64,000 bases of DNA from Anisus vortex (Eukaryota; Mollusca; Gastropoda; Planorbidae). Shown piece after piece: positions 5,274 to 41,550 of the stretch (the first letter of the stretch is position 1; every line of letters begins with the position of its first letter). Under the pieces are notes generated by a model that did not search any database, was not told where the DNA came from, and was given only the letters and a program-made list of their open reading frames with translations. The DNA is taken from positions 17,242,447 through 17,306,446 of the forward strand of contig OX421506.1 of the NCBI GenBank assembly GCA_949126835.1, in the 5' to 3' direction. Both the position numbers and the translations under genes were made by a program.

Positions 5274-5797
5274 GAATCGGCAAAGCAGTATCCTTAATGG
5301 ATACTGGTTCAACCAAAGAGAATGAAACAATGCCCAACTCACTGACAGGACAAAAATATCTGACTACCAGGCCTGCGAGCTCATCACACTGGGCTACATA
5401 CGCTAAGCAAATAAAGCAGCTCAATAGCTTTCACTTTCAATGCTTGCGTACGATACTCCACAACAAATGGCAGGAAAGAGTCACAAATGTGGAGGTGCTC
5501 AGGAGAAGCCATATGCTGAGTATGAGTATGAACTCGAGAAAAAGAGGTCGCCTTTGCTTAAGTTTTAAAGACGTCTGCAAAACAAAAAACCTGCTACTAG
5601 CATACATTGATTACAAAACGTGGGAGGGCTTTGCTGAGAAACACACCTCCTGGCGGTCCAAGGTGCTCAAGGGCACTCAAGCCACAGAAGCCACCATCTC
5701 AGAAAGAAGTGAAGAGAAGCGATTCAAGAGAAAGGCGAGGGGTAGGGGAAAGGGAGACTGCGCCATCGTCCTTTGAGAATGAAAGGATGCCATATAT
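5274..5797 (+). mobile_element. LINE 3' fragment, same family as the 52207-55595 element
   Basis: Starts with codons for IGKAVSLM and, after a frame change, NAQLTDRTKIS..YQAC, then AKQIKQLNSFHFQCLRTIL and KWQERVTNVEVLRRSHML, ending in the basic tail E-R-S-E-E-K. Every block aligns with the C-terminus of the full element on the minus strand at 52227-52900. It lacks about 20 codons of the GHVHRMG block, so it is internally deleted as well as 5'-truncated. The 3' end gatgccatatata matches the end of the full element. It stops only about 30 bp before the splice acceptor of the CARD exon. Confidence 0.85.
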
Positions 5798-5826
5798 AAC
5801 AATCGCCATTATTTTTTTCTTTTCAG

Positions 5827-6111
5827 AAATGGATATAGAAATGACTAAAGTTGAGGATATTTTGCAAAGTTCAGAACTTTGCGAAATCATCAAAAACCAC
5901 ACAGATGCTAATGAAATAGCGCCTATTTTATGTGGCAGTAATATAATCAACACTACTTACTGCGACGAGTTGTGTCGTAGAGACAAACATGAACGAAATA
6001 CGATTTTGTTAAACGCCATTAGGACTAAAGGTAAACTCCATGAAAAACAAGCCTACCTAAAAGCCATAAGAGAGAAATTCGGACAAGTTTATTCTCAACT
6101 AGTAGCGAGAG
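5827..6111 (+). CDS. Exon 1: CARD-like death-fold domain with the start codon
   Basis: Acceptor tttttttcttttcag ends at 5826; ATG at 5829-5831; donor gtaatt at 6112; exit phase 1. The 94 codons read [20 protein letters not shown], then the blocks [35 protein letters not shown] and [19 protein letters not shown]. The layout is that of a CARD: a helix-1/2 pair, I-A-P-I-L, a charged turn, the E-R-N-x-x-L-L-x-x-I helix 4, R-T-K-G, then the A-Y-L-K-A-I helix 5 and a terminal helix ending Q-L-V. The frame is open 5' through the adjoining LINE tail, but the acceptor next to the ATG makes 5829 the likely start. A generic death-fold domain of another type is the main alternative. Confidence 0.65.
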
Positions 6112-8869
6112 GTAATTAACTTTTAATCGCTTGTATTTAATTGTTTTTTTAACATTTTAACCAGCTTTGCTGGCGACTTTCTAGAAGTCATTGGTATTGT
6201 ACTATAAAGGACTCTTGTGAATAAAACGTTTTAAGACACCCAGTCCACGAACAATGTGAAAATATTTAATTACAATGTTTAGATACAGTAACTGGTGCAA
6301 TGAGACCAAAAGCTGTGCATTTCTAGACATCTCATATCTTGAATAGTTAACTATTTTACCGGCGAAAACTTTTCTTAACTCTTTGCATTGCTATAATTCT
6401 AGTCAAGTCAAACAAAAGTTAGTTCCTCAAACGCTTTCTTGCTTATGAGCAGCTGTTGGAATTGGTGTCATTTACCCATGGAATGTGAAAATCACGCCAA
6501 ACTTAATAATGTCCTAAAAAAATGTTGGTACACAAAGATGAAAAGTCAGATTGCTAAAGGAAAAATTGACAAGTGCACACGAAATATTGCCGCTACAAAT
6601 AATATAACGGAGTTGGCCTACTTGTAAATAACGAATTAAAAATAGATACAATAAAAACTGGTCAAGTCTCAGATTCATGAAGTGCTAAAAAAAATAGACG
6701 ACAGTTTAGCAATGATGAAATTCTATTTCAAGATTTACTAAAAGCAGTCACTGTTGATATAAACAGCTTTTTATATTAATTTGTATTAATTCGAGTTAGC
6801 TCTATTTAGTCTATTTGTAAAATGCTCTTTAGAAAGTTTTTTTTTAAATAGTAGTAAAAGACAGCAGCCCCCTTCCCCCCATAAAAAAAAACAAAATTTT
6901 TTCCTTCTTATTTTTGCAAGATATTCATTTTTCTTATGTAATAAATAATAATGAATTATCCATTGTGCAGACCTAAACATATGTCGAATTTAAATTGAAC
7001 AATAATGATAAAGATTTTAAATAAAAATATATTTTTATTGCAGTTAACATTAGGAAGATAAAAATTGATTTAATGCAGCTGACAAGGGATAAAGGTATTT
7101 TTTGTTGTTGATATAATAATTTAAGTGTTAAACATTAATAAATTAGTGGTTAGTCATTTATTCCTATTTGGGCCTACGTTGCTGTTTTTTCTTCTATCAT
7201 TTACATTTCATTCTTTTAAATAGATGAGCTAGTCGAAACAAAAAAGAAACTGACTGATGAAAAAAACAAATGTAAGTTTTCTACTATTTGCGTTGGTCTG
7301 TATTTCCAAATATTTACATTTGATCTTATTTTTTTTTTCACCTTAAACTTACATAACTAGATTTGTTTAGGTTTATCTGGGCTAGTTATAATTATATGCA
7401 GAAATAACATCAAATACATATTTTAAAGAACATTATATTTAACCTACTACCTATTAAGTATGAAATAATTTGATAGTAATACTTTGCAATTCCTTGATAT
7501 ACATTTTCAAAGTTTCCTACTAAGGCTTATTATGGCATGTATATTGCAGTAATGCAAGTACTTTCAATAAACAAAAAGAAAATTGAAGACTTATCAGGAA
7601 AAGGTGGTAAGCTATACACATTTAAATACATTTTAAATAATTGTTGGTTACTAACAATTAAAATGTATACATTATCTAACGTACTATTTAATTTATTTTC
7701 TTATAGAATAACGTTTTCTAAAATGGGTTTACTTTGGTTAGTTAAAAAACATTAGTTTATTCATTATTATTCTAACCGTCGCAGTCACTTCATATAAGAA
7801 TAAGAAAAAGAATGGGCATTTCTATAGCGCTTCTATCAATGCTATTAAATTAGCATGATCAGTGCGCTCTTGGTGTGATTTGCAGTGGCATATGTATTAG
7901 CCAAAAGAGAAAGGTCTTCAAGTTCTTTTTAAAAATTTCTCTTGTCCCAGATTCTCTCAGTGTCTGAGATAGACTGTTTCATAAAGAAGGTGCCACTGAC
8001 TCAAATGAGCGCACTCCCAGGTACTTCTTTCTGTGTCCATCCAAACTAGGAGTTTTGAGAAGTGACTGTGTTGAAGATCGCAGTTCCCTAGATGGTTCAT
8101 GCCTTGAGATAAGCTCATGTAGAGTTGTGTATGCACAATTGATTTTTATGTAGAGATAAATTACGTAGAACTATCTATTAGGACGTAGTCTTTTCTTTTG
8201 CAATCGGAAAGCATCGAGAAAATCAAATCTATTACTTTGGGCACCAACATATATATAAGCACGCGTCTGGTTGTTATAGATTTTTCTTTAGCTACCAGTG
8301 AAGTTGAATTATTATCGTGCATAATATGTTCAAGCAGTAAATTATTCTTTGAACAAATATTGAGTGGCTTGAGTTTATTATTAGAGTGAACATGATTCTA
8401 ACAAGACAACAGAATATCCTCTGATTCACAACACAACTTTGCTCTTTGCCCTTTTTTTTAGTGTTTTCAAGCCAAGGTTTAGTGTAAAGGCTTTTTGGTG
8501 TTTCTCTTGTGAATATCTACAGGAAATGAACTCTTCTCTAAATTGATTTTTCAAAATGTTTCATTTAGTTAATGTTAATATTTAGTTAATAGAGAAGATG
8601 TAAATTCTCGCATAGGTCTTTTATGAATGTTATATTTGCGTCTTTCTCTTAACCGTGGTTTGAGTTTTGTCTTCCATTTGGATTCGTTTTTGAATGATGT
8701 TAAGCTACTGGTTTTCCTGGTTTGTACAGGTTTGTATTTTATCTCCAGATGCAGCTCGGGAAGTACTTATATGCATTTGCTATAGTCCTTGTCTTTGTGC
8801 CTATATTTATCTGAGCATTGAAATAGGTTGTTATTGCGTTGTAATTTTAAATTAGAATTTAATGACTTA

Positions 8870-8925
<56 letters not shown>

Positions 8926-8954
8926 CTCTATCTCTCTATCTATCTATCTCTCTA

Positions 8955-8991
<37 letters not shown>

Positions 8992-11900
8992 CTCTCTATC
9001 TCTCTATCTATCTATCTATCTATCTATATATATATATATATATTTATCTATCTATCTATCTATATACATTTATATATATATCTATATATATTGTTTAAAA
9101 AAAGATATGATGTATATGAGAACCTTACAAGAAATAAAAAAGCAAGAGGAGAGAGCAAGAGTAAGTAAGTATTGTCTTTTTTTTTTAAATTTGAAAATAA
9201 TTAATTTTAAAAATAAGTTAACAAGGATGATTAAGCATACAATTGAAAATCTGCAGGATTATGTACTTATATGTGAAAGTATTGTCATGTATATTGTTTT
9301 TCCAAGAATTGGAAAACGCAATGTTTATTCTTCTCTCTCTCTCTTTTCTCACTACACACAATATTAGGACGTTTAGTAGGAAAACGAAAGATTCTAGGTA
9401 ATGTTGGGATTCTGTGTTGATCTCAAATTCTCAGGGTCTGGGAACGACTCATTATTTAATAGGGGAAGTTCCTATCGTTTTTGTTATGAGATTAGTAATG
9501 ATACCATGATTTTCACCCCTACTGGTAATGGGTCTGTCCCTTGCACCACTCGGATAGTATTTAATGATTTGTTTTGTCTGAAAGACAGAGAGTTTCAAAA
9601 TATGTTCCTTTGAGAACGTTTTTGTTTGCACTATTTAATTCTAACTGTACATAATAGATATATTGTATATATTGAACATATCACCTGAAATAAACTATCA
9701 ACAACAGTTACACTGAAGCTTCCTTGTCAAGTTACTATTCTATTGTGTTGTATACATTACTATAGGATTTATCTACTACTCTAATGCCCAAGAAAGGAAA
9801 TGTTGGAATACAAATACTGAGTTTGTGCCCAGGACTATAAGAAGAGTTCGTGTAATACTGAAACATAAATACTAATAATTAAAGTCTCCCCTAGGACTAA
9901 CGAGAATTATCAGCAAGATTTACACAGCTCTGGCCACAAGGGGATTGTGGACGTAACAGTATGTATGTATACATGCTTGCTGTCACCATTCCAGTTCCTA
10001 TATGCTATAGACTGGGTTATGAAAAAATCCAACAGCGAAAAAAGGAAGGGAATCCAATGGATTTTGTTGAAACAGCTGGATGACCTGGATTTTGTAGAGG
10101 ATCTTGCGCTCCTGTCACAAAGCCACCCACAGATGCACAATTTAGTGCCAGCTAAAGCATTGGAAATCGGCCTTTGCAACGACAAAGGCTAATTTTGAAA
10201 ATTAACCCCGCCTGCACAAATGTCGTCATCCTAAATGGAACCCAGCTGGAAGAAGTACAGTCGTTTACTTGCCTGGGTCGTATAGTAGACCAACAGGGCG
10301 GAACAGACGCAGATGTCAAGGCAAGAATTGGAAAATCAAGAGCAGCATTTTAACAGCTCAAAACATATAGTAGTCCAGAAAATTGTCCAGGAACACTAGG
10401 GTCCGACTCTTCAACTGAAACGTGAAGTCAGTCCTACTATAAGGAGCGGAAACATGGCGCATGACAATGACTACCATCAGGAAACTCCAAGCATTCACAA
10501 ACAACTGCCCTAGACGAATCCTGCAAATGTGATGGCCTGACACCATCAGCAATGTTAGCCTTTAAGAAAGGACCGACCAAGCCCCAACTAAAGAGGAGAT
10601 CAGGAAGAAAAGATCATGAAGATGGGGTTGGATAGGTCACACACTACGCAAACCAAATAACATTACAAGGCAGGCATTGCGATGGAATCCCCAGGGAAAA
10701 AAGAAAGAGCGACCGCCCAAGAAACATATAGAGGCGTGACAGGGAAGCCGAAATCACCAAGATGGGTTTCAGCTGGAACCAGTTAGAGAGGATGGCCTTG
10801 GATAGCATAATCTGGAGAACTTTTTTTGGTGGCCTATACTCCGACAGGGGTTGACAGTCTCTAAGATATAGTTAGCTTGGTAGAAATTCGTAAGTTATTT
10901 CGTAAATAAAACACAACTATGCATATCTTTATAGACATCATGAATGAAATCCCGATAAATCTATATTTCATATTATGCTCAACCATATATTATTGAAATG
11001 TCTTATATCTAATAGTAAAGGAACAACTTGAATTGAAAGAAAATGAGCTGGACCAGATACAAGAAAAGAACAGTAAGTAACTAATCTTTATCATGATTAT
11101 TTTTGGTTTATCAGTCTTATTTTCGGAAAACATATTCAGGGGCGATTATAAACAGCTGTGTAGATTAAGTAAGATCCGTTTTTATCTGTCGTATGAGTCA
11201 GCAAAGAAACTTTATACGCTCGCGCCTCGACTACTGTAATGCTCTGCTAACCGGGATACGTGACGATAAACTCGCTAAACTACAGTGTTTACAAAACAGT
11301 GTCCCAATCAAAACACGATTCTGCAACAGTTCACCCAAGTCGGCTTCATTGGCTCCTAGTGAAAGCCGGAATTGAATACAAAATTGCGATACTTTGCCAT
11401 CAATGGCTACATAATAATGAGATGTCGTTCTATTTCAAGGACAAAATCAGCCCGTTCCACAATGAACACTTCGTTCTGCCGACTCCTCCCTTCTTGAGGT
11501 GCCTTCTTTCTTGCTTACGACCGTTGGTCTGAGATCCTTCTCAAAATCCAGCCAAAATGTATGGAAACTAATTCTCAACCAACCCAGGCAGACAAACTTT
11601 ATCATCACTTTAAAAAAACAAACTTAAAAACACTTTTTTTAAAATTTACTTTCGCTTAACGTTTTTAGACCCCTACTCAGAGCCCACACAAGCCTATGTA
11701 GCGCCCCATGGCAAAAGTTTCAGCGACGCCCCCTTGCATACTGTAACTGCTTTGTTTAGTGATATAGTTAGAATATATTTGCTGCCTCTAGAAGTGTCGC
11801 CCCCGGGCATATGCCACCCTCGGTTCCCCACCCCTATGTGAGGGCACTGCCCCTACTGCTTTACTTTTATATCAAGTCGGTTAATGCTACAGTGATTTGC

Positions 11901-14900
11901 TTTGTCCTATGTTTGTATCGTTTTAAATCATCAATAAGCTTTAGACCCTTTTTAGCCTAGAGATTAAATCCGTATTCTCGCTTGTTTGCTGCAAAATGTT
12001 GAATGCTCCCTGAGCTTACATTATGTTTGTTGGCAGCGCTATACATATAGAATTATTATTACTATTCAAGAAAAAAAAAATCGTATGTTGTGTTTTATTA
12101 TTTATCTGTATTTGATAATAAAGACTTTACACATCTGTTTTAATTTTTTATGACATGTACACCCAGGGGTGAAACCAGAATTTTTTTCCAGGGAGGGCTG
12201 AACTTTCGCGTGACAAATACTTATCAAATACCTGGGGGGGGGGGGGGGGGGAGGGGGGGAGGCTGAACTTACGCGTGATAAACATTTACCAAATTTTTAT
12301 CAAATTTAGTACAGATTTAAAAAAAATCTCTTGAACATTTTTTTTTTTTAATTCCAGGGGGGGGGGGGGGCTAGCCCCTGTGTACACCTAATCATCTACA
12401 AAGTGTTTTTACGTTTTATTGATTAGAAAAAATGGAATCACTTTATGAAAGGGCCGAAACAGCCTTGGAAGAAATGAGACGAAAATTCGAGGCTTTAGCT
12501 GAATGTAAGTAAAAGGAATGTTCATTATTTTAACATTCAGGACTTGCATATTTTGGGTTATCAAAATGAAAAAGTGGGCCACAGTCGAGTTATTTTTGGT
12601 TCACAACTAAATAAAAAATAAAATTCACTGCATTTTTTCTTTTCTTTTTTTTGTTGTTGTTGTTGTTATTAATTGTTTAAAAATGGGACATTTGTGAAAA
12701 AAAAGTTATATTTGTAATATGCATTTTAAATAGCAATGTAAACACATATGTTTATTTTTTTTTTAAAGAAGTGCGTCTTTTAGACCATTCTGTTAAGCCT
12801 ACATTTTAAAGCAGTAGACCTACATTAAACAACATATTATTAGTGTTTCAAAGAAACATTCTAAAAGACTCAAAATGAAATAGACTTTTAAATATTTTTC
12901 CGTTTAAGTAATTTTTCTATTGCGAGTTCTTGAAGTATCACAATGTAATAAATTATAAGACAGAATATAAAATTTATAACAAGACGATGGCAACACGTAA
13001 AATAACAAACAAAAGCGAAAAACAATATAAAACAAACGGACGACAATTTGGTATTTGTAGGCCTACACATTTTTTACTATTCTTCTTTTTTTTTATTACA
13101 GCCCATAGACAGTTAGCCGAAAGTGAAAACAGATGGAAATTGCAACTAGAAGAACAAAGTAATCAACTGTATAAATATTTTTAATGTACTTCTGATCAAT
13201 TTTTTAATTTAAATTAAAGAGGGCTTAATGTGTTAACTTGTTATTGAAGGATCTTACCATGTTCACTAAAGCTAAAGTTAAAGCGAAGTTATAATGTACT
13301 TTTTACGATTAGAGATGTTTCTTTAATACAACATAATTTGGTTGACACGGGCCAACTAAATGTACATTTTCGACATTAAGCTAGCTAAATGTATACATTT
13401 AGACGCGTGTCTCTCTTACCGCTGTTATCCCATGATGACATCTTCAATAAATCCAGTGGCATACCAACATTGTTATAACAGACTGTTCAAGGATTTTCGG
13501 AATATTTCACTGAAGCGTCTTTTAAATGTAATCTTATTTTATCGTATAAAAAGTTCTATAGAGAATATTATTGTGTCCTACGTGTATCCATGGTATGAGT
13601 CTAGTCTGGCATTTTGATATAAGTTTTGTTGGATTTCCTGGTTTGTTCAGGTAACCCATTCCACGCACAGATGCTACTAAAACAAAACAACAAATGCGTG
13701 CTTGTCAAGCTCCGATATAGCTAAATATAATAGGCGTATCATTTTTAATATGTATTAAAAGTATATTTTAAAAGTGTTTGATACATTATGTTTTTATTTT
13801 CAAGAAAAGGAAAATCTCTTGCTGGATGAAAAAATAAAAAGTCAAAACGAAAAGTTTTTGAAGGAAGTGGAGAAATGTATGTATTCATTATTGTATTTAT
13901 TATAGCTTGTTAAAGTACATTTTACACATTTACAATTGTATATTCTCAATTCATCATCATCATCGATCTCTTGACCGCCGAGGTCGATTGGTGGAACGAA
14001 TAGACGCCTCAGGAGTCATCTTTTACCTTTCTCACTGATCTATTGAAAGCCGTCCTAGATAGGCACAAATTCTCAACACTAATATATAATAAATATTTCA
14101 ATTATATAGAAATACTAATACAACATACTGTTAGAATAGGATTTCGTTCTAAGTACATTCGAAGAGTATAATGAGATGGACCGCTTGCCCTATTTTTAGA
14201 ACTAGCATGTTGTTTTTTACGTGCCCAGCCAATAACACTGACTTTAATGACTCCTAAACTTTTTTAAAGACTTCCGCTGTATACAGCTTCCAATTGTAAT
14301 CTTAATTTTCCATTGCGAAAATCATGGCGAATTACTAAACAAGTATAGAGGACAGGGTACGATCAGAAATTCAGAAACTAAGTGTTTCAATTTATCAAAT
14401 AGCAGAAATATCAAAGCAAGAGGTCCATCTTATTATAGTCTTTGGAACAATGTACAAAATTATTACCAACATGTTTTAGCATTGCAAACATATATAGCCT
14501 AATATACATTTTTTTCAGTTTTAACCTTTATAGTTAGAAACTTTTGCTTATTTATTTAGCTAATGGACCTAAGGAGACATAATTTATTTTCTTTTGTTCT
14601 GTTAACAGTCAAATCACAGCTGAACAATATTGAAGTAAAATGGGGTATGTTATAAGCTTATGTGTCTATACCTTCGTCTACTGTATAATGACATAATGAA
14701 CTGTCACGTTCTTGTTTTTCCCGAAATCTATTTACGAATAGAAAGGGAGAGAGAGAGAAATTAAAAATACATTTATATTTTACATTTTGATTATGATCAA
14801 TTTTTATGCCATTTAAACTAAGCTTAAAGGTAAACAAAATATCATTCTTAAAATAATAATGCTAAAAGAAACGTTTTTTATTTTGTCATAATCATTCGAT

Positions 14901-15155
14901 TATAATTAATACAATAATATAAGTCATATAATTTTTAAATGCAATATTTAAAAAAAAATGTTTTTTTTTATTTGAAAATAAGAGAATTAGGTCAATTCTT
15001 ATTTTTAATTTGATCATACCGACAGTTTTAAGATTTTTATTTTACTGTGTCTGTTTCAGAAAGAAAAAAGTCAGTAAGTATAGGCCTACCAGGTTACCTT
15101 CGTTTTTTTATATTTCTGATTCTTACTCCCCCTACTCCAGTTTCTCCAGTCTTCC

Positions 15156-15218
<63 letters not shown>

Positions 15219-15587
15219 CCTCTTTAACTCTATCACTTACTCTTTCTAACATTATCCCCAGTCTCTTTTTTTCTCTCTATTTCATTTCATTGTCTTCGTC
15301 ACTTCTCACAGACATTATTGTTTGCACATTAAATTTTCTGCATCTTTTGATCTGTTTTAAAAGCCGTTACGTTTATACCAACAAATACAAACACAAACAT
15401 AACTGAGCGTAAACGCCATTAAAATGTTTGCACATTGGCTTTAACCTAAGAATTATAACAATCAAACAGCGTTATAACCTATAAACTATTCGACTAAGAT
15501 ATTTATAAAAACATTGCATCTTTAAATTGAACACTTAACGGTGTTAAATAAAGTGAAATATATTCTGAAGGTCTTTGATTATAAAAA

Positions 15588-15633
<46 letters not shown>

Positions 15634-18600
15634 ATTATGTATATACACCGCATATATTCTCAGGGTAAATCTCGACACATAAAACAAGATGGTTATATGT
15701 CGGATAGGGGTCTTGAGAGGTAGGGGTTTTGATTGTCTTAAATGTGTTGTTAGTTTAAATCAGGCACTAGCCAAACTTAGTAAAAACAGTTTGTTTTGAG
15801 ATTTTAGGAAACTTGGTTAATCATTCTATAACAATATGTTTTTAGGATTTATAACTCTTGCATTTGTTTCCAATGATTGACCAGAGAGGAAAAATACGAG
15901 ATTACTCGTCTGTTAAAATGATAAGCTTAGGAGCTGACTGACTGTTAAAATATTCTTATGACTAGTCAATGTAATTGTTATCTTTTATTTATATTCAGCA
16001 TTTGTTTACAATAACTATATATAACTCTAGGTATAATTTTGATTTCTTTTTTGTTCCTTGTTTTTTTGTTTGAAATAAGTGCAAGTTCAGGTTTCACTAA
16101 TAGAAGGCCACCGGATATTCAACTGGAAGTAAGGTCATCTTTATGCTAATAAACATTGTCGTCTCTTAAGTATTCTCAAATACTTTTTCAGTTATTTATG
16201 ACTTAAAATATATACTAAGATTTTAAAAATATAATTAATGTTATAATTTAATACTCTTCTCTTCAAAACGGAGACAAAAATGTGTTGGTTTCATTCTTTG
16301 TATATCTTTGTTTTGAAATGTGTTTTTAAAAACAAAAGCTACCTGGATGGTTGAGACAGTGGAGAATAGGGGAGACATATACAGTATATGTAAAAAAACA
16401 ACAACAACACATCTTACATAAAATATTTCACCCAGTCTTAGTAATCGTTTTGTGCGCCAAAGGGCGGCCCTTTTATTATACATAAGTACACGGAGAAAGT
16501 TTTATATTAAGTTCATTTTTGAGTTGCAATACCGACAGATAATTTATCAAATATTTTTAGATTTCAGCAGCCACCTTGTATAATAGCCTTAGAGTAACAT
16601 ATTTTGCTTGAAATTATTAGAGAAAAAATATTTACGTATACGATTTAACAGCATAGAACATAAAATAAAAAGTTAATCTCATAAAATTTTAGCCTTATGT
16701 TTTTTTTTCTTTTGACTTAGGATGAAAATGGTGCAATTGTTAACTTCGATGTTGATCTAAATAGTAATTATCAACTTGACTTTGAAAGTGATGAAGACAT
16801 TCAAGAGTATGTTTTGAATGACATTAAAATTTTTAAATAATATTATTTTCTCGAGAATAAAACATAAGTAGAATATAATAAATATAAACTCTAAAGATTA
16901 GACGTTTCTAAAAGTCAATTTTATTTTTGCAGGTACGAGGTTCTGAATCAGCCTTCAATCAGACCAAATACGTCATTTTTTGTAAGCATCCATTGGAATA
17001 CCTAAACTTAAGAGCCATTTCTATGTAAAAACGAATGTCATAAACGAATGCCTAATAAATTGGATGTTCGTTAATGTGAATTGTTACATTTAGTTTCTTA
17101 TACACACTTATTAACTGTCCAGAACATAGAGGTTCTAACCTTCTAATCTATGAACCATATTGCAATGCTTCTGCCCATTCAGTAGCTTGTTAGCTGGTCC
17201 TATGGTTTTCAACAATATATCCCAGGTTCTAACCTTGCCGCTGACCATTCCCTGTGCCGGTGTACTCGGTCTGGCTCGGGCCAAGGTCGTAGTCCGAATA
17301 TTCTTCTTTCTGGAAGAAGACTTCGTAAACTATAAGACACTAATTTAAGCATTTGTCCATATCAAATTAAACCAAACACGGATTTGTTACTAAGTTTAGA
17401 AAAGTTGAATAGTTATAAATTTTAAAATTAATCTCAAATAAGCATCTCCGTTCACATTTCTAAAGTTCTATAGTTCTAGCATGGTCCATTATATTTTACA
17501 TACTTGATTATCTCTTTGTGACCTTTTTGAGCACTATATGTTTTGTGGTCGCTTATCCAAACTTTAGGGAAAGCGTGTAACAAGTGTATCAAGCAAGCCT
17601 TTACATTGTAAAGGAAACAGATACATTAAGAGTAATAAAGCTGAGAAAGAAGTGATCGTTCAACACACAGAACGAACAAGGAGGTAAAGTATTAGTACAT
17701 ATATACAATAATACAAATCAAGTTTGATATTTAAAATCATATCATAAAAGGTTTTAACTGCTTATCCTATTGTATTTGGATTTTGTTTAACATAGAAAGA
17801 ATGCATTTTAATTAAACATATATATTATTTCCTATTTATTACAGTTAATTTAAATATTTTATAAGCAGAACATTGAATTGAAGTACGTACCATAAATGAA
17901 TGGAGAAACTTACAAAAACGTTAATGCCTTTAGGATTTAAATTTGAAAAAAAAATAAAAAAATTATAATACAAATGAAGTGACAAATTCTTAAGAATTGT
18001 TTTTTAGGAAAGCTTCTTAGTTAGTTATGATTTTACTATAACCACTATATAATAGGTAATATCAATCTTCACATAATTCACATATATCTAAAAGAATCTA
18101 AAAGAATCTAAAAGATATAGTATGTAGTATGCGTTAAGTAACTTTGTTCTAAATTTTCAATAAACATTGTATGCTTTCTCTCTAGGTACGTGCCTTCACA
18201 TCAACAACATATTAGACCATATACTTCTTTATCGTCGGTAAGCGTTGTTTTTAAATTGTAAAATATAATTAATGCTACTATACAGTATAAATATGCCTAT
18301 ATATATATATATATACGTGTGTGTATGTGTGTAATTACATAGGCCTAGATAGATAGAAGTAGAGAGAGAGAGAGAAATAGGAATAAGTAAGTTAGTTATT
18401 AAGATAATAGACAAAAAGGCTAATATAAAAACTGAACTTATAACTTATAAGTATTTGTATTAAGTAGATTAGTACTGTATATGGCATGTATTCAAAATAA
18501 TTAATAAGATAAATTTCGTTTAAATATGTAACGATCACCTCCCAATAGAACCAAAACTACACAATTGTAAACCTTATATAAACCTTTTCATTGTTTTTTC

Positions 18601-21080
18601 AACAACGGAAATTCCATACTAGGTGATTGTGCCTCCATCACAATGCATAGCTGCCTTTACTTATCCCCAACTAATGTCAGGTATCCATTAGAGGCGGGTA
18701 GACTCAGGGACACCCTTCAGACCAAAATACAAATTCTAGCCATTTCTGGAAATCGAACCCATGACCTTCGAAATGTCAGTCATGCGTGCTGCCTGTCGGC
18801 CACCAGGCCTCATTATAGCTTTCTGGTCAGTTTGTATTTTAAAACTATTAAATCTCCTAAGGAATATTGCTCAAGCACTATACATATTTTTGTTTTAAAT
18901 GTGTATGTTGATTGCTCTACCTTTATGGAAAGCGTGCCACAAGTGGAACAAGTGATCCTTTTCACTGTGAAGGAAATAGAGACATTGAATGTAATGAAGT
19001 TGAAGAAGAAGAGATTGTTCAACAGACTGACCGAATTAGAAGGTTAGCTATATTTTACATTCGATTATAATAATGACGACTACTTATATAGGAAACAATC
19101 TTAATCGACTATTATATTTTGCATTATTTTATATTAAAATGTGCTTTTTTATTACACAATTTTAAATTTTTATCAGTAATTTCAAAGATTATATTCTTAG
19201 TACGTGTTGTGTCAATAGCATACTGTTATCATAACTAAACTTTTTTTTCATTCAAACAGTATGTCTATATTAAGAAGAGCCAAAACAAATTTAGATTTGA
19301 AAGTACATGTAAGTATATTTTACCATGTAATATTTAATATGAATGCATGTAACTTTACTATTAACCTTTCGATGATAACTAGCGCATAGATCTGTTGCAG
19401 TATGATGAAGCGTTGATGTAACTTTCTGGGTGAGGTTAAGGCTGCCCAAAAGCTGCAAGACCCCCTCCCCCCCAGACTTTGTTGACTTGACCACGTAAAC
19501 TATTCATTTTCAATGATAATTGATGTTTTGAATTGCACACATCATCGTAGAATTAATTACAAATCTTATTTCTATATCTTGAACGAGATGTTATTACACT
19601 AAATATATCCAATACAATTTGAGCACTGAAATTAAATATTTCATATTATTTCTGGTTATTGAAAAGGGCAAAGCTTTCAACAGTTTTCCTAACATTGCGG
19701 GTACATTGTACTTTAGTATACCCAACGAATCGTCATCTAGTATTAACAATGTTGATACAAATAAGACAACTAGGTAAGTTAAAAGTTAATTACATATCAA
19801 ATAGTAACCTATCATCATCTTGTCATCGTAGCTCTGCTAATTTAGTCCTTAAAAAACGTAGGTTTATTAGAATACAAATAAATTGTATTCGCTAAATAAT
19901 ATTTTTTTTAATTTGGTACATTATCTACATATTTTTATAGGAAAAAACATTATTAGGAAACTTTCTTCTATTTCACTTAGGAATTTAGGCACTCCTCACT
20001 TCACGATTACTAGTTAAAAACTAATGTAATCGCTTAAAAGCTTTAGAATACAAACAAATAAAAACAAGAATGTTACATTTGAACTAATGCATGATTATGA
20101 ATTGTCACGGACATTTGTCTCAGAAAAAAATCCAGTTTTTCGAAAGTATTTCCCTTGTTTTTTTTTTTTATTAACCTTTACTGCACAGTGTTTTTATTTA
20201 TGAGGGTGAAATGAATTTTATGTTTTAAACGTTTAAACACTTTTTAAAATTGTATTTCACAGGAACATTGGGGCGCACTATAAAGTTGAAATTGGAGGCA
20301 AAATTACAAAGATAGACGTAAGTAGGATTACCTTAAGTGTAATACAGCGTCGATATAATGAACATGAATTTAATTCACATTATTATTAAACGACAGTTTG
20401 TTTTTTTTGCTATATTTTATAACTACACAGTTTCATTCTAAAACATATTTTTATATGGTCTTATTTTGCCGTTTGTTTGAATGCTTATCATGTGAAACAT
20501 AAATAAATAGAGGGATGATTTTCGGGAGGGTTTGAAAACCTTCTGATTTTATAAACACAAATACAAGCAAATATGACCGACGGACAGAAAAGTATGTCTA
20601 TTATAATTAAATGTACAACATAAGCTTAATTTATAAACAAAGAAATGCAAAAGTTATAAAGTTATCAAGGCAATTTTCCACAATAATTTACTTCATCTTT
20701 AAAATTTAGAATCGTTATATGGAGATTTATTGTTTTATGAATAAAAGCAAAAAATTATTTTTACTCCAAAAAAATAAATGTTCACACTTTTTTTGTGCAT
20801 AACCTTCGTATGTTGGTAAATATCGTTTTTTTTTTATATTAACTGATCGTATAAATAAGCCTGGACATATTGTACTGGCGACATTACGATTGTTCGAACT
20901 TTCCTATAGTCTATTAATTTCGGATGAATAGCCTATTTGACACAAGTTAATATATTTAATATATATATATAATATTTGTTTCATCGTCATTAAATATTTA
21001 AACACCTAACTAAACAATAGTTATAACCATTTTTTTAACAGGACCAATCTCCCAAGGGGAAGTTAACCAATATTGACTGA
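5829..21080 (+). CDS. CARD / coiled-coil protein encoded by about 20 symmetric mini-exons (whole gene span)
   Basis: Reconstructed by reading phase. The coding exons are 5829-6111, 7224-7271, 7550-7606, 9105-9164, 9368-9397, 11016-11072, 12427-12504, 13102-13158, 13805-13876, 14609-14644, 15060-15073 (or 16091-16128), 16721-16806, 16933-16981, 17568-17683, 18186-18237, 18927-19042, 19260-19308, 19667-19773, 20263-20317 and 21042-21080. With the 15060-15073 choice the sum is 1461 nt, 486 codons plus stop. The protein has an N-terminal CARD-like domain (residues 1-94), a charged, K/E/L-rich coiled-coil-like rod (about 95-263), then four copies of a two-exon module and a short tail. A death-fold plus coiled coil suggests a cytoplasmic oligomerising signalling adaptor; this is inference. 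The introns carry many LINE and SINE pieces. Exons 4 and 5 are the weakest and exon 16 lacks an AG acceptor. Confidence 0.65.
6112..7223 (+). other. Intron 1
   Basis: AT-rich. A 62-codon ORF at 6439-6627 (contains [18 protein letters not shown]) is not recognised and has no splice context; it may be a fragment of an old element. Confidence 0.4.
7224..7271 (+). CDS. Exon 2, phase 1/1, charged coiled-coil peptide
   Basis: tttaaatag acceptor, gtaagt donor, 48 nt. Joined to exon 1 it encodes [16 protein letters not shown], a heptad-compatible Lys/Glu peptide with no stop in the required phase. Confidence 0.6.
7550..7606 (+). CDS. Exon 3, phase 1/1
   Basis: Acceptor tatattgcag, donor gtaagc, 57 nt. 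Encodes [19 protein letters not shown]. Phase continues from exon 2 (T + TA). Confidence 0.55.
7850..8130 (-). pseudogene. LINE reverse-transcriptase C-terminal tail (fragment in intron 3)
   Basis: Minus-strand reading shows the tail block [15 protein letters not shown] followed by [10 protein letters not shown], the standard end of many CR1/Jockey-group ORF2 proteins. It contains stops, and no catalytic part is present. Confidence 0.6.
8440..8870 (-). repeat. LINE 3'-end remnant (minus strand)
   Basis: The stretch from gttaagctactggttttcct through gtacttatatgcatttg and ttatctgagcattg to tttaatgac matches 34170-34330 and 34440-34560 in the same order. The word cctggtttgt is the reverse complement of the Asn-Gly-Leu-Pro-Glu-Gln-Thr coding end seen in the plus-strand copy at 57830. 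Non-coding decay product. Confidence 0.6.
8871..9085. repeat. Long (TATC)n / (TCTA)n microsatellite with CT and TA interruptions
   Basis: About 200 bp of tetranucleotide ctat repeats, degrading to tctc and ending in ta repeats. It abuts candidate exon 4, whose polypyrimidine tract is replaced by this tract. Confidence 0.95.
9105..9164 (+). CDS. Candidate exon 4, phase 1/1
   Basis: Donor gtaagt at 9165 is good and the 19 full codons [19 protein letters not shown] fit the coiled-coil series in the right phase. The acceptor (tttaaaaaaag) has a poor pyrimidine tract because the microsatellite lies just upstream. May be skipped or weakly used. Confidence 0.4.
9368..9397 (+). CDS. Candidate exon 5, phase 1/1 micro-exon (30 nt)
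   Basis: A ctctctcttttctcac pyrimidine tract leads to acceptor atattag, with donor gtaatg. Encodes [10 protein letters not shown] in phase. Symmetric, so inclusion or skipping keeps frame. Confidence 0.45.
9398..9732 (+). other. Intron sequence with an unassigned ORF
   Basis: A 70-codon frame (9401-9613) shows no family I recognise and runs directly on from exon 5, crossing its donor. Treated as intron. Confidence 0.35.
9733..9958 (+). repeat. Dispersed repeat, copy A (about 225 bp)
   Basis: From tctattgtgttg through gtttgtgcccagga, aaagtctcccctagga and ctctggccacaa to ggattgtgga. The same order of words occurs at 56650-56876 (copy B) in an intron of gene 2. Here it runs straight into a LINE reverse-transcriptase fragment and may be part of that element. 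Confidence 0.75.
9950..10875 (+). pseudogene. LINE reverse transcriptase, central to C-terminal part, broken
   Basis: Begins with [19 protein letters not shown], then [20 protein letters not shown], the position of the catalytic F/Y-A-D-D box; the box here reads F-V-E-D, so a catalytic Asp and the Ala are lost. After a stop, other frames give the [24 protein letters not shown] block, the W-R-x-T block, [15 protein letters not shown] and [15 protein letters not shown] blocks and finally LYSDRG before stop. Several frameshifts and stops: dead copy in intron 5 of the CARD gene. Confidence 0.85.
11016..11072 (+). CDS. Exon 6, phase 1/1, coiled coil
   Basis: Acceptor atctaatag, donor gtaagt, 57 nt. 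Encodes [19 protein letters not shown]; Leu spacing fits heptads. Confidence 0.6.
11190..12075 (+). pseudogene. CR1-like LINE reverse-transcriptase C-terminus with 3' tail
   Basis: 11200-11530 encodes [16 protein letters not shown], then [10 protein letters not shown], and in another frame [20 protein letters not shown], the canonical CR1/L2-type end (S-R-L-D-Y-C-N ... L-H-W-L-P-V). The tail W-K-L-I-L-N-x-x-R-Q-T-N and K-H-F-F follows to about 11645. The element appears to run on to gcgctatac with an (ATT)n-like end at 12040-12065; a second copy of that tail is at 50880-51150. An A-rich block rich in gcgccccc words lies at 11660-11840. Confidence 0.75.
12160..12385. repeat. Degenerate repeat with two poly-G tracts
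   Basis: The phrase gggctgaactttcgcgtgac recurs as ggctgaacttacgcgtgata about 75 bp later, each next to a G run (12234-12258 and 12357-12371). Tandem partial duplication around unstable G tracts; no coding content. Confidence 0.7.
12427..12504 (+). CDS. Exon 7, phase 1/1, coiled coil
   Basis: 78 nt, donor gtaagt. Encodes [19 protein letters not shown] followed by KFEALAE. The best heptad pattern in the gene (L, A, L, M, F, L at a/d-like spacing). Confidence 0.65.
13102..13158 (+). CDS. Exon 8, phase 1/1, coiled coil
   Basis: Strong pyrimidine tract and acceptor attacag, donor gtaatc, 57 nt. Encodes [19 protein letters not shown]. Confidence 0.65.
13560..13690 (-). repeat. LINE 3'-end remnant
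   Basis: cctacgtgtatccatggtat, then ggtttgttcaggtaacccat and attccacgc, is the reverse complement of the W-N-G-L-P-E-Q-T coding end and 3' UTR seen at 57880-58000. Related pieces lie at 33440-33480, 33785-33905 and 34480-34530. Confidence 0.6.
13805..13876 (+). CDS. Exon 9, phase 1/1, coiled coil
   Basis: Acceptor ttttattttcaag, donor gtatgt, 72 nt. Encodes [19 protein letters not shown] and KEVEK in phase. Confidence 0.65.
13877..14608 (+). other. Intron, nothing assignable
   Basis: AT-rich. A short GC-richer patch at 13970-14060 may be an old repeat end; no ORF. Confidence 0.35.
14609..14644 (+). CDS. Exon 10, phase 1/1 micro-exon
   Basis: Acceptor ctgttaacag, donor gtatgt, 36 nt. Encodes [12 protein letters not shown]. 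Confidence 0.55.
15060..15073 (+). CDS. Exon 11, 14-nt phase 1-to-0 switch exon
   Basis: Acceptor ctgtttcag, strong donor gtaagt at 15074. Encodes E-RKKS and changes the reading phase to 0, exactly what exon 13 (DENGA...) needs. An overlapping weaker donor gtcagt at 15070 would keep phase 1 and would then need exon 12. Very small, so confidence is limited. Confidence 0.45.
15158..15215. repeat. (CT)n microsatellite
   Basis: Uninterrupted ct dinucleotides for most of the span. Together with the (TA)n at 15588-15630 it fills much of intron 11. Confidence 0.95.
15588..15630. repeat. (TA)n microsatellite
   Basis: About twenty ta units inside an otherwise unassigned intron stretch. Confidence 0.95.
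16091..16128 (+). CDS. Exon 12, alternative phase 1-to-0 exon
   Basis: A T-rich tract lies about 20-60 nt upstream; acceptor gttcag, donor gtaagg, 38 nt. Read in phase 1 it gives [12 protein letters not shown] and exits in phase 0, which is the entry phase of exon 13. It is therefore interchangeable with exon 11 after exon 10, or usable after the gtcagt donor of exon 11. A mutually exclusive pair is the simplest reading; RNA evidence is needed. Confidence 0.4.
16721..16806 (+). CDS. Exon 13 (module 1, A-type), phase 0-to-2, acidic
   Basis: Acceptor gacttag after a long T tract, donor gtatgt, 86 nt. Encodes [18 protein letters not shown] and [10 protein letters not shown] plus GA. Acidic linker-like sequence. 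First of four A-type exons. Confidence 0.6.
16933..16981 (+). CDS. Exon 14 (module 1, B-type), phase 2-to-0
   Basis: Acceptor tttttgcag, donor gtaagc, 49 nt. Encodes [17 protein letters not shown]. The I-R-P-x-T-S core recurs in exon 16. Confidence 0.6.
16982..17567 (+). other. Intron with an unassigned GC-richer repeat-like block
   Basis: 17120-17330 is GC-richer than its surroundings and contains the word ggttctaacctt twice (near 17130 and 17225). No coding signature recognised; probably an old mobile-element piece. Confidence 0.4.
17568..17683 (+). CDS. Exon 15 (module 2, A-type), phase 0-to-2
   Basis: Acceptor aactttag, donor gtaaag, 116 nt. Encodes [18 protein letters not shown], then [20 protein letters not shown] plus AG. 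Paralogous to exon 17: same length, 22 of 38 residues identical, conserved H-C-x-G-N-R. Basic compared with the acidic exon 17. Confidence 0.65.
18186..18237 (+). CDS. Exon 16 (module 2, B-type), phase 2-to-0
   Basis: Acceptor ctttctctctag, donor gtaagc, 52 nt. Encodes [18 protein letters not shown], resembling exon 14 in Y-x3-x-Q and I-R-P-x-T-S. Confidence 0.6.
18297..18380. repeat. Composite (TA)n - (GT)n - (GA)n microsatellite
   Basis: ta repeats, then gtgtgtatgtgtgt, then tagatagatag and gagagaga. Intron 16. Confidence 0.9.
18612..18816 (-). repeat. tRNA-derived SINE, copy 2 (minus strand)
   Basis: On the minus strand the head aggcctggtggccgacaggc carries box A and gtcatgggttcgatttcc is a well-kept box B (ggttcgatttcc). 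The body gggtgtccctgagtctaccc and ttagttggggataagtaaag matches the other copies. It ends about 110 bp upstream of exon 17. Confidence 0.85.
18927..19042 (+). CDS. Exon 17 (module 3, A-type) with a missing AG acceptor
   Basis: The sequence is homologous to exon 15 along all 116 nt and keeps an open frame: [18 protein letters not shown], then [20 protein letters not shown] plus AG, donor gttagc. Where exon 15 has tttag|GG this copy has tttat|GG, so the canonical acceptor is gone. Either the exon is skipped or a non-canonical or cryptic site is used. Skipping it together with exon 18 (phase 0 in and out) keeps frame. Confidence 0.5.
19260..19308 (+). CDS. Exon 18 (module 3, B-type), phase 2-to-0
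   Basis: Acceptor ttcaaacag, donor gtaagt, 49 nt (same length as exon 14). Encodes [17 protein letters not shown]. Confidence 0.55.
19667..19773 (+). CDS. Exon 19 (module 4, A-type), phase 0-to-2
   Basis: Acceptor ttgaaaag (weak pyrimidine tract), donor gtaagt, 107 nt. Encodes [18 protein letters not shown], then [17 protein letters not shown] plus AG. Starts with G-K like exons 15 and 17 and feeds phase 2 into exon 20. Confidence 0.5.
20263..20317 (+). CDS. Exon 20 (module 4, B-type), RHIM-like peptide
   Basis: Acceptor tatttcacag, donor gtaagt, 55 nt. In phase 2 it encodes [19 protein letters not shown]; phase 0 would stop after six codons. The core I-G-x-x-Y-x-V-E-I-G-G is reminiscent of RHIM or cryptic-RHIM amyloid motifs ([IV]-x-[IV]-G). 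That comparison is a hypothesis from pattern only. Confidence 0.55.
21042..21080 (+). CDS. Exon 21, terminal coding exon with stop
   Basis: Acceptor ttttttaacag, phase 0. Encodes [12 protein letters not shown] followed by TGA at 21078-21080. The 3' UTR follows. Confidence 0.6.
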   Translation, partial: DQSPKGKLTNID

Positions 21081-24060: not shown

Positions 24061-25740
24061 TTACGTCTCGAGAGACGATCCATATCCCTTGCAGGCCTTC
24101 ATGTGGCTAAAGAGGCCAATCCTGGCTGTACAGGCACGGTCACACTTGCTGCAGTTGAATGTAGTGGAGGGCACCACATTTTTCACCACCGTCTTTTTCC
24201 TGGCGTGCTCCTCTCCCGCAAGACTTGAACCTTCTTTCATTTCTGCTCTCCAAGTGGGCCTATCTTGCGCCATGATCTCCCAACTGGAGGTGTTCCATAT
24301 CTCTTTTGCAGACATCCGCAAATCTCAGTTTTGGACGTCCAGCAGGTCTCTGTCCCTTAGCTAACGTTCCATATAGAATGTCCTATGGAAGTCGACCCTG
24401 TGGCATTCGGCGTACATGACCTAGCCAGCTGAGACGTCTGTTACTGAGAGTAATACGGATGTCTTGACACTCTGCTCTTCGTAGGACTTCTGCGTTTGAA
24501 ATCCTGTCCTGCCATCTTATATCTAGAATGCGTCTGAGACACCTGATATGAAATGTATTCAATTTTCTCTCCTGCTAGGAATATGTGCTCCATGTCTCAC
24601 ATCCGTAAAGCAGGGTACTCAGAACGCATGTTCGATAAACTAGGGACTTAGTGGAGCATGTAAGCAGCGGGCTCATCCAGACTCTTTTTTTTAATTTTGC
24701 CATAGTGCCCATGGCTTTAGCTACTCTGCTATTGATCTCCCCATCTAGGAGCACATTGCTTGAGATTTTGGCCCCAAGGTAGCAGAACTCTTCAACTACT
24801 TCTAGTGGATGGCCACCAATAGTCATGCATGGCACAGTTGCAGCGTTTTGAGCCAGTACCTTGGTTTTGTTTTGACTAATGCTGAGGCCGAATTTTCGGC
24901 ATGCATCATCAAGTTTATCAATGAGCGTCTGGAGCTCGTTTGCAGATTCGGCAACAATAGCTGTATCATCAGCATAGAGAAGTTTCCTAACCAGTACACT
25001 CCTAAGCTTTGTTTTGGCTTTAAGCCTGTTTAGATTGAAGAGCTTTCCAGATGTCCTTATGTGAAGGTAGACTCCCCCATTGCAGTCCCCATAAGCATAG
25101 TGCAGTAGGCACGAGAAGAATATTCCAAACAAGGTGGGTGCAAGTACGCAGGCTTGTTTAACGCCGCTGAGGACTTCAAAGGGCTCTGATTGCGCTCCAT
25201 TAAACTTCACTGTGCACCTGGTATTATCAGGTAGTGATCTACCCATCGTTCCAGCTGCTTAGTCTGATCGGTTATTTTTTCCCCTGACTTAGACAGAATG
25301 GGAGCAGGTTTAGACATTTCAGGACCCAGGGCAGCCTTAATGCCATCATGCAAAGCCTTGCTATTTCCAAGGGTCAAACTCTGTTGCATATTGTTGCACA
25401 TATCTCTCCAGAAGTCATTGGCGCATTGTCGAGCAGTTTGCTTGCATTTTTTGTTAGCAGTCCTAAGGTCTAGCAAGGTCTCCGGACAAGGGTTCGCCTT
25501 GTAAGTCAAGTGCGCTGTCCTTTTCTTTTCTATAACAGGCTCCATCTGTTTGATATTTGCATCAAACCAGTCAACATGTCTTCTCTCTTGTGGGCCAAAG
25601 GCATTTAGTGGTGAGTTATAGATTTCATCTCTCAGTTTTTCCCACCTGGCAGTGATGCCGTTTGTCTCTACTCCCTCCTGTGGCCGGATCGATTATTTCA
25701 GTATTTCACAGAAAAGCTCGGATTTGGTTGAGTCAAGCAA
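24061..25740 (-). pseudogene. LINE (EN-RT type) with internal deletion and a C-terminal C2H2 zinc finger
   Basis: On the minus strand 25545-25207 carries the linker segment (MEPVIEKKRTAHLTYKAN, K-L/Q-E-R-W-V-D-H-Y-L). It passes directly into the RT core with a frame change: CTVKFNGAQSEPFEVLSG, APTLFGIFFS, KLLYADDTAIVAE, KFGLSISQNKTKV, EEFCYLGAKIS and STLLYGCETW. The N-terminal half of RT is missing at the junction near 25230. After frameshifts come the R-M-P-Q-G block, GRPKLRFADVCKRDM-like sequence and, at 24180-24090, the finger CSKCDRACTARIGLFSHMKAC. The YADD box survives. The 3' end is near 24061 and is followed by an atatat tail. Confidence 0.85.
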
Positions 25741-39429: not shown

Positions 39430-41550
39430 ATTGGTTCTTAAATTGAACAAGTTTAAAAAAAAAATTCTTATTTTTTGTCCGGAAACTTTTTCATTAAACA
39501 TTTTACCAATGTGGTGCATTATAATTTTTAAATAGCTTTCTATGCAAAATTTGATCATCAAAATGGCATGATGATGTTGGTGATTAATCAAATAAGTGGA
39601 AATCTAAACATGTAAAAAGCCATTTATTGTGACACATTATTAAGGTATTTGTGCAAATGTTTGAAACAGCTCTTGCCTTCAACAAAGTTGTCACTGAAAT
39701 TTTCAGTTCTCTTTGAAGAGATTTTTCTGTTTCTAGGCATACAGAAAATATATCACTATTGGGTATTGTTAATCCTCCCTTATTCTTAAAATGTACAAGA
39801 CTATTTGAAAATGTAAAATTATTTTCAAAAGATAAAGTTTCTAAACAAAGGTGACATTTAATTATTTTTTTCATCATCTTAATCACATATCCTGCAATGT
39901 AAGAAATTGCAGCTTCTTTAAATTCTGACAGTCTGCCTACTTCATAATCTGGGACATTATCTAATGCTATATTTGGTGTAATAGAATCAATACTAATATT
40001 AGTGTCGTGAGCTTTTGAACCTTTTGCTATCGGATTTATACTGTTCAATATATCAATTAATTTATCAATGTGTAAATAAAATGTACTGTATTATGAGAAT
40101 CTTTAAAATTTTCCATTTTGTATTGTTTATTACAAAAAGCTATTGCATCAGCAACACTTGTACTTAAACATTGAGCTGCTCAATTCACTTTCATTTTTTT
40201 CTTTTTGATAATGTATGTGATTACAAGTTCATTTGTTTCTTAGTCTAAGTCCTTCTTTTTCTTGAATAGCATGCAAATCTTCTATAAAAGACCATTTAAT
40301 AAAGTTGTTTTCTATTTTTAAACATTTTCGTTCTGCTAAGGTATTTCTAACATTTTTTTTTAGATTTACACAATTTAGTTTGACAAACTTTCAATTTCTG
40401 TACTCTGTTCTCATAGTCCATCTTTCTTTTTTTTGTCTTGGTACTGTCTGTTATAAAATATGAATGATCTTGGTTGTTTTCTGTTGCCATAGTTGTTGTT
40501 TCAATTCTGGGATTGGAAGTGGATGTCATTTCCTCTGGACATAGCTGAAGGTATAAAAAAAAAAGAAAAATTTTGAACACATACCAAAATGTATTATCAT
40601 ACATAATGTAATATTATCAGCGCGCTCATGAATGGATTGCCTTTTCGATACTGAAACATTTGCCACACATATATACCGTTTTGAGTCCATGATTCAAATA
40701 AGCTATGTAGCCCTCAGTGGTATTTCTCTATTGGACTAAATTAGCATAGCATAACATGCCACTGGTGCAGGAGATTAAGGCAGAGGCATGCGGTGAATTT
40801 AGGTACATGCAATATCGCAATGGCAATGTTTAGTAGCCTAGGTCTTGTCTCTTATCCAGTATTTACAGGACGTTGTTTACATATCCAGGGCCGTATTTAG
40901 GATTGCTGGGCCTCTGTTCAAAATTTTTAGTGGGGACCCCTCTTGGCCTCGCCCTGCCTTCCGCATACCTCAGAGAAGTGCCATTAATTAATATTACATT
41001 TTTAAAAATAATAAATTCTATGTTGCGCTGAAGCGCTTAAATTGTAGGGGAAAAAATGGGGATGTCACAAAAAATATGTTTTTTATGTGTGTGAGCCCCC
41101 CTTTTGTGTGGCGGCTCCTGTTCCAAAGGAACACGTGGAACATGCTTAAATACGCCACTGTGCATATCCGTTATACAGTCACACAACCTCTTACGATAAC
41201 TTGACTCTGTCATAGGTTGTATAAATATCATTGTTAGGCCAACTGGTTCAGTGGTGCATTAAAGTACCAGCATTTGAAAATAATTTTATAAATATTTAAA
41301 TGTTTTTGTTAAATAATAACAAGTGTATATTAATAAAATGAAAAATTAAACATACTACATTCTGTTTATTCAGCTCAAAAAGGTTGGTACAGCATTTTGT
41401 ATTAATCTTGTTTGCTTTCCATATCTGTCAAACATGTTTTCTTCTAAATGCAGTGAACAAGTACGTGTAGTAATTCTCACATTTTCCTTCTCAATACCGA
41501 CATTTTCTATCCATTGTTGTCTTCTCTCTCTAAATGTTTGATTCGGAAAC
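39430..41550 (-). pseudogene. P-element-like transposase with THAP domain (decayed)
   Basis: Minus-strand exon 41550-41356 encodes the second half of a THAP zinc finger: FPNQTFRERRQQWIENVG, CSLHLEENMFDRYGKQ, TRLIQNAVPTFF. A second exon from 40543 gives a basic, coiled-coil-like region (KKRKMDYENRVQKLKVCQ). Then come, with stops and frame changes, F-I-K-W-S-F-I-E-D-L-H-A-I-Q-E-K-E-G-L-R-L, and from 40048 the P-element C-terminal region: AAISYIAGYVIKMMKKI, C-H-L-C, KNKGGLTIPNSDIFSVCL, and finally FCIESYLKIIMHHIGKMF. The order and motifs fit P-type (THAP9-related) transposases, nuclear cut-and-paste enzymes. The first half of THAP is missing; a CR1 fragment lies just upstream at 41640-42330. Confidence 0.8.
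40880..41170. repeat. Decayed repeat pieces inside the P-like element
   Basis: ccagggccgtatttaggatt and ggcctctgttcaaaattttt at 40888-40925, and gtggcggctcctgttccaaa then taaatacgccactg at 41108-41160, are fragments of the low-complexity 'decayed phrase' type also seen at 11700 and 33905. Intron-like position between THAP and the core. Confidence 0.45.

Follow-up and report, generated by a model that had tools for sequence, protein, structure and literature searches.

A probable CARD–coiled-coil adaptor gene of Anisus vortex with nine in-phase mini-exons, and candidate relatives in the surrounding CARD cluster

Does the chain of small symmetric exons that follows a CARD-like exon in the gastropod Anisus vortex belong to a real gene, and could the splicing of these exons set the length of a coiled-coil rod carried by a single CARD? 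The window under study is a stretch of 64,000 nucleotides (C15:17242447-17306446), part of a genome of 863 Mb in 159 contigs. A sequence-only reading had proposed 21 exons with GT-AG borders and a continuous phase, closing on a stop codon. When rebuilt from the sequence of positions 5000-26500, this chain, running from 5829 to the TGA at 21078-21080, was reproduced with AG/GT borders, a continuous phase and 21 exons, in two variants, whereas its refinement led to a final model of 20 coding exons for a protein of 491 aa (Table 1). Nine consecutive phase-1/1 exons, announced at 30-78 nt, are indeed found directly after the CARD exon (283 nt counted from the ATG), except that the smallest is 36 and not 30 nt long.

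Exon 4 has two possible ends, a donor GTAAGC after 7606 (57 nt) and a weaker donor after 7603 (54 nt); the former is more likely, owing to the GTAAGC motif and to the 57-nt counterpart in a tandem paralog described below. The candidate exon 16080-16128 was dropped for being phase-incompatible with a 14-nt 1/0 microexon conserved in this paralog: since the microexon ends in phase 0 in both genes and joins 16721 directly, 20 coding exons are left. The discarded candidate shows zero mismatches in the second haplotype, and about 8% of intron segments of equal length are just as well conserved. A 38-nt 1/0 form of it (16091-16128) joins in phase 1 and is a possible substitute for microexon 11. At the 5' end, the start codon lies 2 nt past an acceptor in the window gene and 3 nt past an acceptor in the paralog, which fits an upstream non-coding exon. 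Any such 5'UTR exon would sit farther upstream than the ORF 5276-5776, because the latter stops about 50 nt upstream of the exon 1 acceptor; this ORF resembles the minus-strand ORF 52437-52709 and is probably a retrotransposon remnant. Long simple repeats occur in the introns (8870-9080, 15160-15215 and 15590-15630), the first two near exons 5 and 11. Elsewhere in the window, ORFs with RVT_1 reverse transcriptase and Exo_endo_phos endonuclease domains (24578-25258 and 54316-55461, both on the minus strand) are probably retrotransposons, while a below-cut-off P-element transposase match and a THAP domain (39587-40090 and 41373-41684, both minus) are perhaps those of a P-like DNA transposon.

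Table 1. Coding exons of the window gene (positions in the window; start/end phases as x/y; the last column gives where each exon was found, i.e., in the rebuilt chain or on the haplotig, and its counterpart in the paralog)
Feature	Position	Strand	Remarks
Exon 1 from start codon, putative CARD, 94 codons, ends in phase 1	5829..6111	+	preceded by a cag acceptor (5824-5826), which points to a 5'UTR intron upstream
Coil mini-exon 2, 51 nt, 1/1	7044..7094	+	chain, haplotig; paralog 51 nt
Coil mini-exon 3, 48 nt, 1/1	7224..7271	+	chain, haplotig; paralog 48 nt
Coil mini-exon 4, 57 nt (alternative 54 nt), 1/1	7550..7606	+	chain; haplotig (54-nt form); paralog 57 nt
Coil mini-exon 5, 60 nt, 1/1	9105..9164	+	chain, haplotig; paralog 60 nt, paired by position and length, sequences little alike
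Coil mini-exon 6, 57 nt, 1/1	11016..11072	+	chain, haplotig; paralog 57 nt
Coil mini-exon 7, 78 nt, 1/1	12427..12504	+	chain, haplotig; paralog 48 nt
Coil mini-exon 8, 57 nt, 1/1	13102..13158	+	chain, haplotig; paralog 57 nt
Coil mini-exon 9, 72 nt, 1/1	13805..13876	+	chain, haplotig; paralog 60 nt, pairing based on position and phase alone
Coil mini-exon 10, 36 nt, 1/1	14609..14644	+	chain, haplotig; paralog 39 nt, pairing based on position and phase alone
Microexon 11, 14 nt, 1/0	15060..15073	+	haplotig; paralog likewise 14 nt, 1/0
Tail exon, 86 nt, 0/2	16721..16806	+	chain, haplotig
Tail exon, 49 nt, 2/0	16933..16981	+	chain, haplotig
Tail exon, 116 nt, 0/2	17568..17683	+	haplotig (9 nt shorter there, in frame); duplicate of 18933-19042
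Tail exon, 52 nt, 2/0	18186..18237	+	chain, haplotig
Tail exon, 110 nt, 0/2	18933..19042	+	chain, haplotig; AT at the acceptor place of its duplicate, next AG two codons in
Tail exon, 49 nt, 2/0	19260..19308	+	chain, haplotig
Tail exon, 107 nt, 0/2	19667..19773	+	chain, haplotig
Tail exon, 55 nt, 2/0	20263..20317	+	chain, haplotig
Last coding exon with TGA stop	21042..21080	+	chain, haplotig

Three lines of evidence, i.e., a scan against control stretches, the second haplotype and the exon series of the paralog, confirm that the exon chain is more than chance. The scan relied on a splice-plus-coil score devised after the window exons had been seen, so that the paralog stretch provides a fairer test than the window. 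At a score of 17 or more, there were five phase-1/1 matches in the window stretch, six in the paralog stretch and none in seven control stretches (about 146 kb), which yielded a single phase-2 match; the corresponding phase-1/1 counts were five and six against two in the controls at a score of 14, and six and seven against six at a score of 9.

Contig C86 is a haplotig of the locus, its CARD exon being 99% identical to that of the window. The comparison was made with 21 exons, among them exon 4 in its 54-nt form and the candidate at 16080 that was later dropped; all 21 align on C86 with 20 mismatches in 1513 nt (1.3%) vs. 6.9% in the introns, a value that includes poorly aligned low-complexity stretches (BLAST pieces over the gene have about 4-9% mismatches, exons counted in); moreover, 1398 intron bases stand opposite gaps. 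In 20,000 draws of intron segments matched for length, no set had a mismatch count as low as that of the exons. The strength of this result lies in the whole set, single mini-exons being unremarkable (6-27% of intron segments are equally well kept). Every listed acceptor and donor dinucleotide is preserved, and the only exon gap between haplotypes is one of 9 nt, in frame (in two controls, 1 and 18 of the 20,000 draws showed equally few gap openings); the haplotig product has an open frame through to the stop and is three codons shorter. Of the 20 changes between haplotypes, 5 are synonymous and 15 are nonsynonymous (pN/pS 0.72), and 13 fall in the tail. Given these proportions, the haplotype comparison does not demonstrate strong purifying selection on the protein.

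The paralog has its CARD-like exon, 44% identical to the window CARD, at C15:17368686, 120 kb downstream, followed in order by nine mini-exons in phase 1/1, a microexon (14 nt, 1/0) and tail exons in phases 0/2, 2/0 and 0/2, the remainder of its tail not being found in the next 20 kb. Seven of these nine mini-exons came from a blind scan, exon 2 was recognized by its likeness to the window and exon 9 by reading. Counted in codons, the series runs 17, 16, 19, 20, 19, 16, 19, 20, 13 in the paralog vs. 17, 16, 19, 20, 19, 26, 19, 24, 12 in the window gene, with six of nine values equal. Exon-by-exon similarity between the two genes falls on the diagonal, to a degree reached by 2 of 100,000 permutations, and their coils align with z = 8.9 against shuffles, the sequence likeness of exons 5, 9 and 10 being slight (z 1.3, 0.4 and 0.7). 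Differences at the three codon positions number 40/29/49 over the 93 codons of the CARD, hence most at third positions, and 16/11/14 over the 33 codons of exons 2-3, where the third position is not the highest. An estimate for the CARD pair (pS 0.28, pN 0.46) was discarded as uninformative, because multi-change codons had all been scored as nonsynonymous. About 5 kb from the paralog, head to head with it, lies another CARD over the Pfam cut-off (locus L007, 3402-3620 on the minus strand, C15:17363401-17363619).

The peptide encoded by exons 2-10 had been taken for a coiled coil, and its heptad periodicity bears this out. Hydrophobic residues recur with a period of 3.5 residues both in the window gene (p = 0.0005) and in the paralog (equalled by 0 of 2000 shuffles), while the single other signal among four further periods was that of 3.6 in the window gene (p = 0.032). 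The mean local heptad amplitude is 0.93 in the window gene (shuffles: 0.55 +- 0.10) and 1.09 in the paralog (shuffles: 0.54 +- 0.09), and the heptad runs across most exon junctions, being weak in the window gene at 4/5 (0.65) and 8/9 (0.38). All nine mini-exons being 1/1, each could be skipped without breaking the frame, as the sequence-only reading held; yet no mini-exon of either gene (0 of 9 in the window gene) has a number of codons that is a multiple of seven, so that a skip preserving the frame would shift the register of the coil. Single skips were simulated for exons 3-9, i.e., seven of the nine mini-exons: the newly formed junction had a lower amplitude than either native junction in four cases of the window gene, the other three being intermediate, and in all seven cases of the paralog. 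It has been suggested that such exons are cassettes, skipped in combinations to yield coils of varied length on one CARD. The preserved frame would suit this idea, as would the weakness of some splice signals (e.g., the exon 5 acceptor and the first of the two exon 4 donors) and the three 63-nt 1/1 candidates of another CARD locus (L046, see below), where skipping would be register-neutral. With no multiple-of-seven exon and simulated skips that mostly weaken the heptad, we nevertheless regard it as unlikely, and rods of different length are unsupported for the window gene, whose mini-exons are most likely constitutive as judged from their lengths and register.

Is this layout peculiar to one gene? 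A search of the genome with the PF00619 profile returned at least 80 matches, 68 of them marked over the cut-off; these counts are lower bounds in which some matches are partial and haplotig copies are included. Contig C15 carries 31 matches in three groups (16.6-17.6, 24.4-25.8 and 29.4-31.1 Mb), and CARD exons are also present on C18. Eight matches belong to the first group, around the window gene, and five are on the haplotig C86, which means that some of the 80 are duplicates. A CARD on C86 (469365-469598, minus strand, 29.3 bits) is without obvious C15 counterpart at the offset-estimated place, a possible haplotype difference.

Nine further CARD loci, chosen and not drawn at random (five within the 16.6-17.6 Mb group, four outside it), were then scanned over 6.6-13.4 kb downstream. 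Phase-1/1 coil mini-exon candidates number three to five at two loci and one at two others, five loci having none, and all four positive loci belong to the 16.6-17.6 Mb group. The richest are L007 (minus strand; 54, 60 and 48 nt, plus two more at lower score) and L046 (42, 48, 63, 63 and 63 nt), while L050 (one candidate of 63 nt) and L051 (one 1/1 candidate of 60 nt, plus one 1/2) each offer a single 1/1 match, which is weak evidence. On the CARD strand of L047, L048, L049 and L052, there was no match within 6.6-8.6 kb, a range beyond which mini-exons might lie if introns are longer; on its opposite strand, L052 has five matches when exons of up to 300 nt are allowed and two with exons of up to 100 nt. 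Over 11 loci, window gene and paralog included, 21 of 22 sense-strand matches are 1/1 (10 of 11 without these two genes), against two matches on the opposite strands. A phase-1 donor, identified by eye, ends eight of the nine further CARD exons, L049 being an ambiguous exception. The layout is thus partly common to neighbouring CARD genes, which makes the window gene a member of a tandem family rather than a one-off, contrary to what had been assumed, and the surprise moves from a single gene to a CARD gene cluster in which at least some members have phase-1 coil mini-exons.

Within this cluster, the 63-nt candidates of L046 amount to 21 codons, or three heptads each, and its fourth and fifth candidates are alike even with the hydrophobic pattern held (z 4.6, p = 0.0005). 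In the window gene, exons 4, 6 and 8 (57 nt here and in the paralog) form the most similar of 84 triples under plain shuffling and rank 39th of 84 once the hydrophobic pattern is kept; their likeness thus reflects the coil pattern and is not proof of internal duplication. Its tail contains a 131-nt direct duplication (17562-17692 and 18921-19051, 76% identical). Together with the apparent duplicates among the candidates of L046, this indicates that exon duplication happened in the family, although it is not demonstrated for the window coil. The idea that a VEIG tetrad near the end of the tail might mark a RHIM was given up, no RHIM being among the Pfam matches. One may go further and imagine an expanding CARD cluster in which coils are built from phase-1 modules, originally of three heptads (63 nt), that were duplicated and skipped to set rod length, L046-like members being still register-neutral and the window gene having drifted with its rod fixed. 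We consider this scenario improbable; if it were true, the genome would have in it a means of evolving the geometry of signalosomes, and perhaps of varying it by splicing.

Similar combinations are known from other systems, even though our literature search brought up neither this gene nor any CARD-coil family with mini-exons. In Biomphalaria glabrata, according to the consulted part of the source (PMC7053062), AIG/GIMAP genes form an expanded immune-type gastropod family that unites CARD and coiled coil in one gene; the window gene shares this combination, but its predicted protein has no AIG1 GTPase domain (Pfam, E up to 1). The schistosome micro-exon genes (MEGs), to which the sequence-only reading had likened the locus, have runs of small symmetric exons and, according to the portion of the source at hand, seem to be confined to platyhelminths, their products being found in glands or secretions (PMC4350168). 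A run of small symmetric exons is indeed shared, but the window mini-exons (36-78 nt) encode a heptad coil behind a CARD, the register of which would be shifted by single skips. Moreover, MEGs have most of their coding sequence in very small symmetric exons, whereas the nine mini-exons here account for 172 of 491 residues, neither the CARD exon nor the tail exons (0/2 or 2/0) being symmetric singly. The analogy is weak, as symmetric exons supply about one third of the protein and as coil mini-exons are also met behind other CARD exons of the cluster.

The identity of exon 1 is best addressed by profile comparison, which relates the window CARD to known CARDs: hhalign matched it to six in-genome CARDs, all of which match Pfam CARD PF00619, at 89.5% (E = 2e-6), and the window and paralog CARDs together at 94.9% (E = 4e-8). 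The CARD-like nature first attributed to exon 1 is borne out in this way, though Pfam misses the window CARD (no PF00619 match for the window protein at E up to 10). The paralog too stays under the curated cut-off (14.0 vs. 23.9 bits), and neither CARD is among the genome's 80 PF00619 matches. The AlphaFold model of the window CARD is of low confidence (pLDDT 59.5), and with this weak model Foldseek gave nothing at E <= 0.001 (best 2.3). VIA-align of the same model returned CARDs or a CARD-based design in 12 of 13 rows, with Z below 6 throughout, a range that, as the tool warns, may reflect a mere common helical arrangement. Against the PDB, the profile of the window and paralog CARDs returned no CARD, and the whole window protein had nothing usable, its best sequence match being at E = 0.41. 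In about 5.8 billion proteins, 7994 candidates were scored for the whole protein with none at E <= 0.001, and the CARD pair search gave six candidates with none at E <= 0.1, in collections that may lack eukaryotic relatives. Altogether, the profile matches support the prediction that exon 1 encodes a CARD.

In CARD-CC proteins, as set out in the consulted part of the source, the CARD is N-terminal, the coiled coil comes next and an additional region makes up the C-terminus (PMC5978004). The scaffolds CARD9/10/11/14 are like the window protein in this CARD-then-coil order, while its coil comes from nine phase-1/1 mini-exons and its tail from repeated exon pairs, the comparison being one of domain order. 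At face value, the gene might therefore be taken for a true orthologue of these vertebrate scaffolds, acting with BCL10 and paracaspase, the more so as molluscs are reported, in the same part of that source, to keep Bcl10 and type 1 paracaspases (PMC5978004), and as L029, one CARD of the six-CARD profile (50.9 bits), has CARD9 as its best PDB match. This is quite unlikely, given that the window CARD shares just 15-22% identity with the six other CARDs of the genome to which it was compared, that the six-CARD profile ranks RAIDD, APAF1 and CARD8 ahead of CARD9, and that the whole protein finds no better PDB match than the one cited above. L029 itself (C15:25517167) was not retained as a CARD9-like CARD and coil gene, its 39 kb downstream containing no 1/1 mini-exon and just two candidates in other phases, one of 75 nt (0/0) and one of 245 nt (1/0). 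Finally, a decaying pseudogene whose exons merely survive, as could be suspected from the tail exon 18933-19042 without the acceptor of its duplicate, from the pN/pS near 0.7 between haplotypes and from the mobile-element ORFs elsewhere in the window, is highly improbable in view of zero stops or frameshifts in the 20 exons of either haplotype, of exon indels depleted to a single one and of third codon positions differing most in the window-paralog CARD pair, though not in exons 2-3.

Gene structure, CARD homology, heptad coil, conservation in haplotype and paralog, and same-phase candidates in the cluster are thus established at the level of the sequence. We conclude that an immune-type adaptor is very probably encoded here by a genuine animal gene, made up of a CARD, a coil in nine in-phase mini-exons and a variable tail. 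The gene is likely a functional one, encoding a CARD–coiled-coil adaptor that has diverged within a CARD family expanded in tandem. In CARD9 and CARD11, oligomerisation through the coil draws CARDs together and so nucleates CARD-CARD assembly. By analogy with these scaffolds, the coil of the adaptor would form a dimer or a higher oligomer, gathering CARDs that may in turn seed assembly with a downstream CARD partner, while the tail of 0/2 and 2/0 exon pairs may regulate this assembly or bind partners. The common phase 1 would be the trace of a coil-exon series inherited by the family, which in L046 has seemingly grown by exon duplication.

CARD adaptors help decide the onset of inflammatory and cell-death signals, and their coils set the number of CARDs joined. 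A tandem family with its coil in symmetric exons is a natural series of coils on related CARDs, and the comparison of its paralogs makes it testable whether the length and register of the coil tune CARD assembly.
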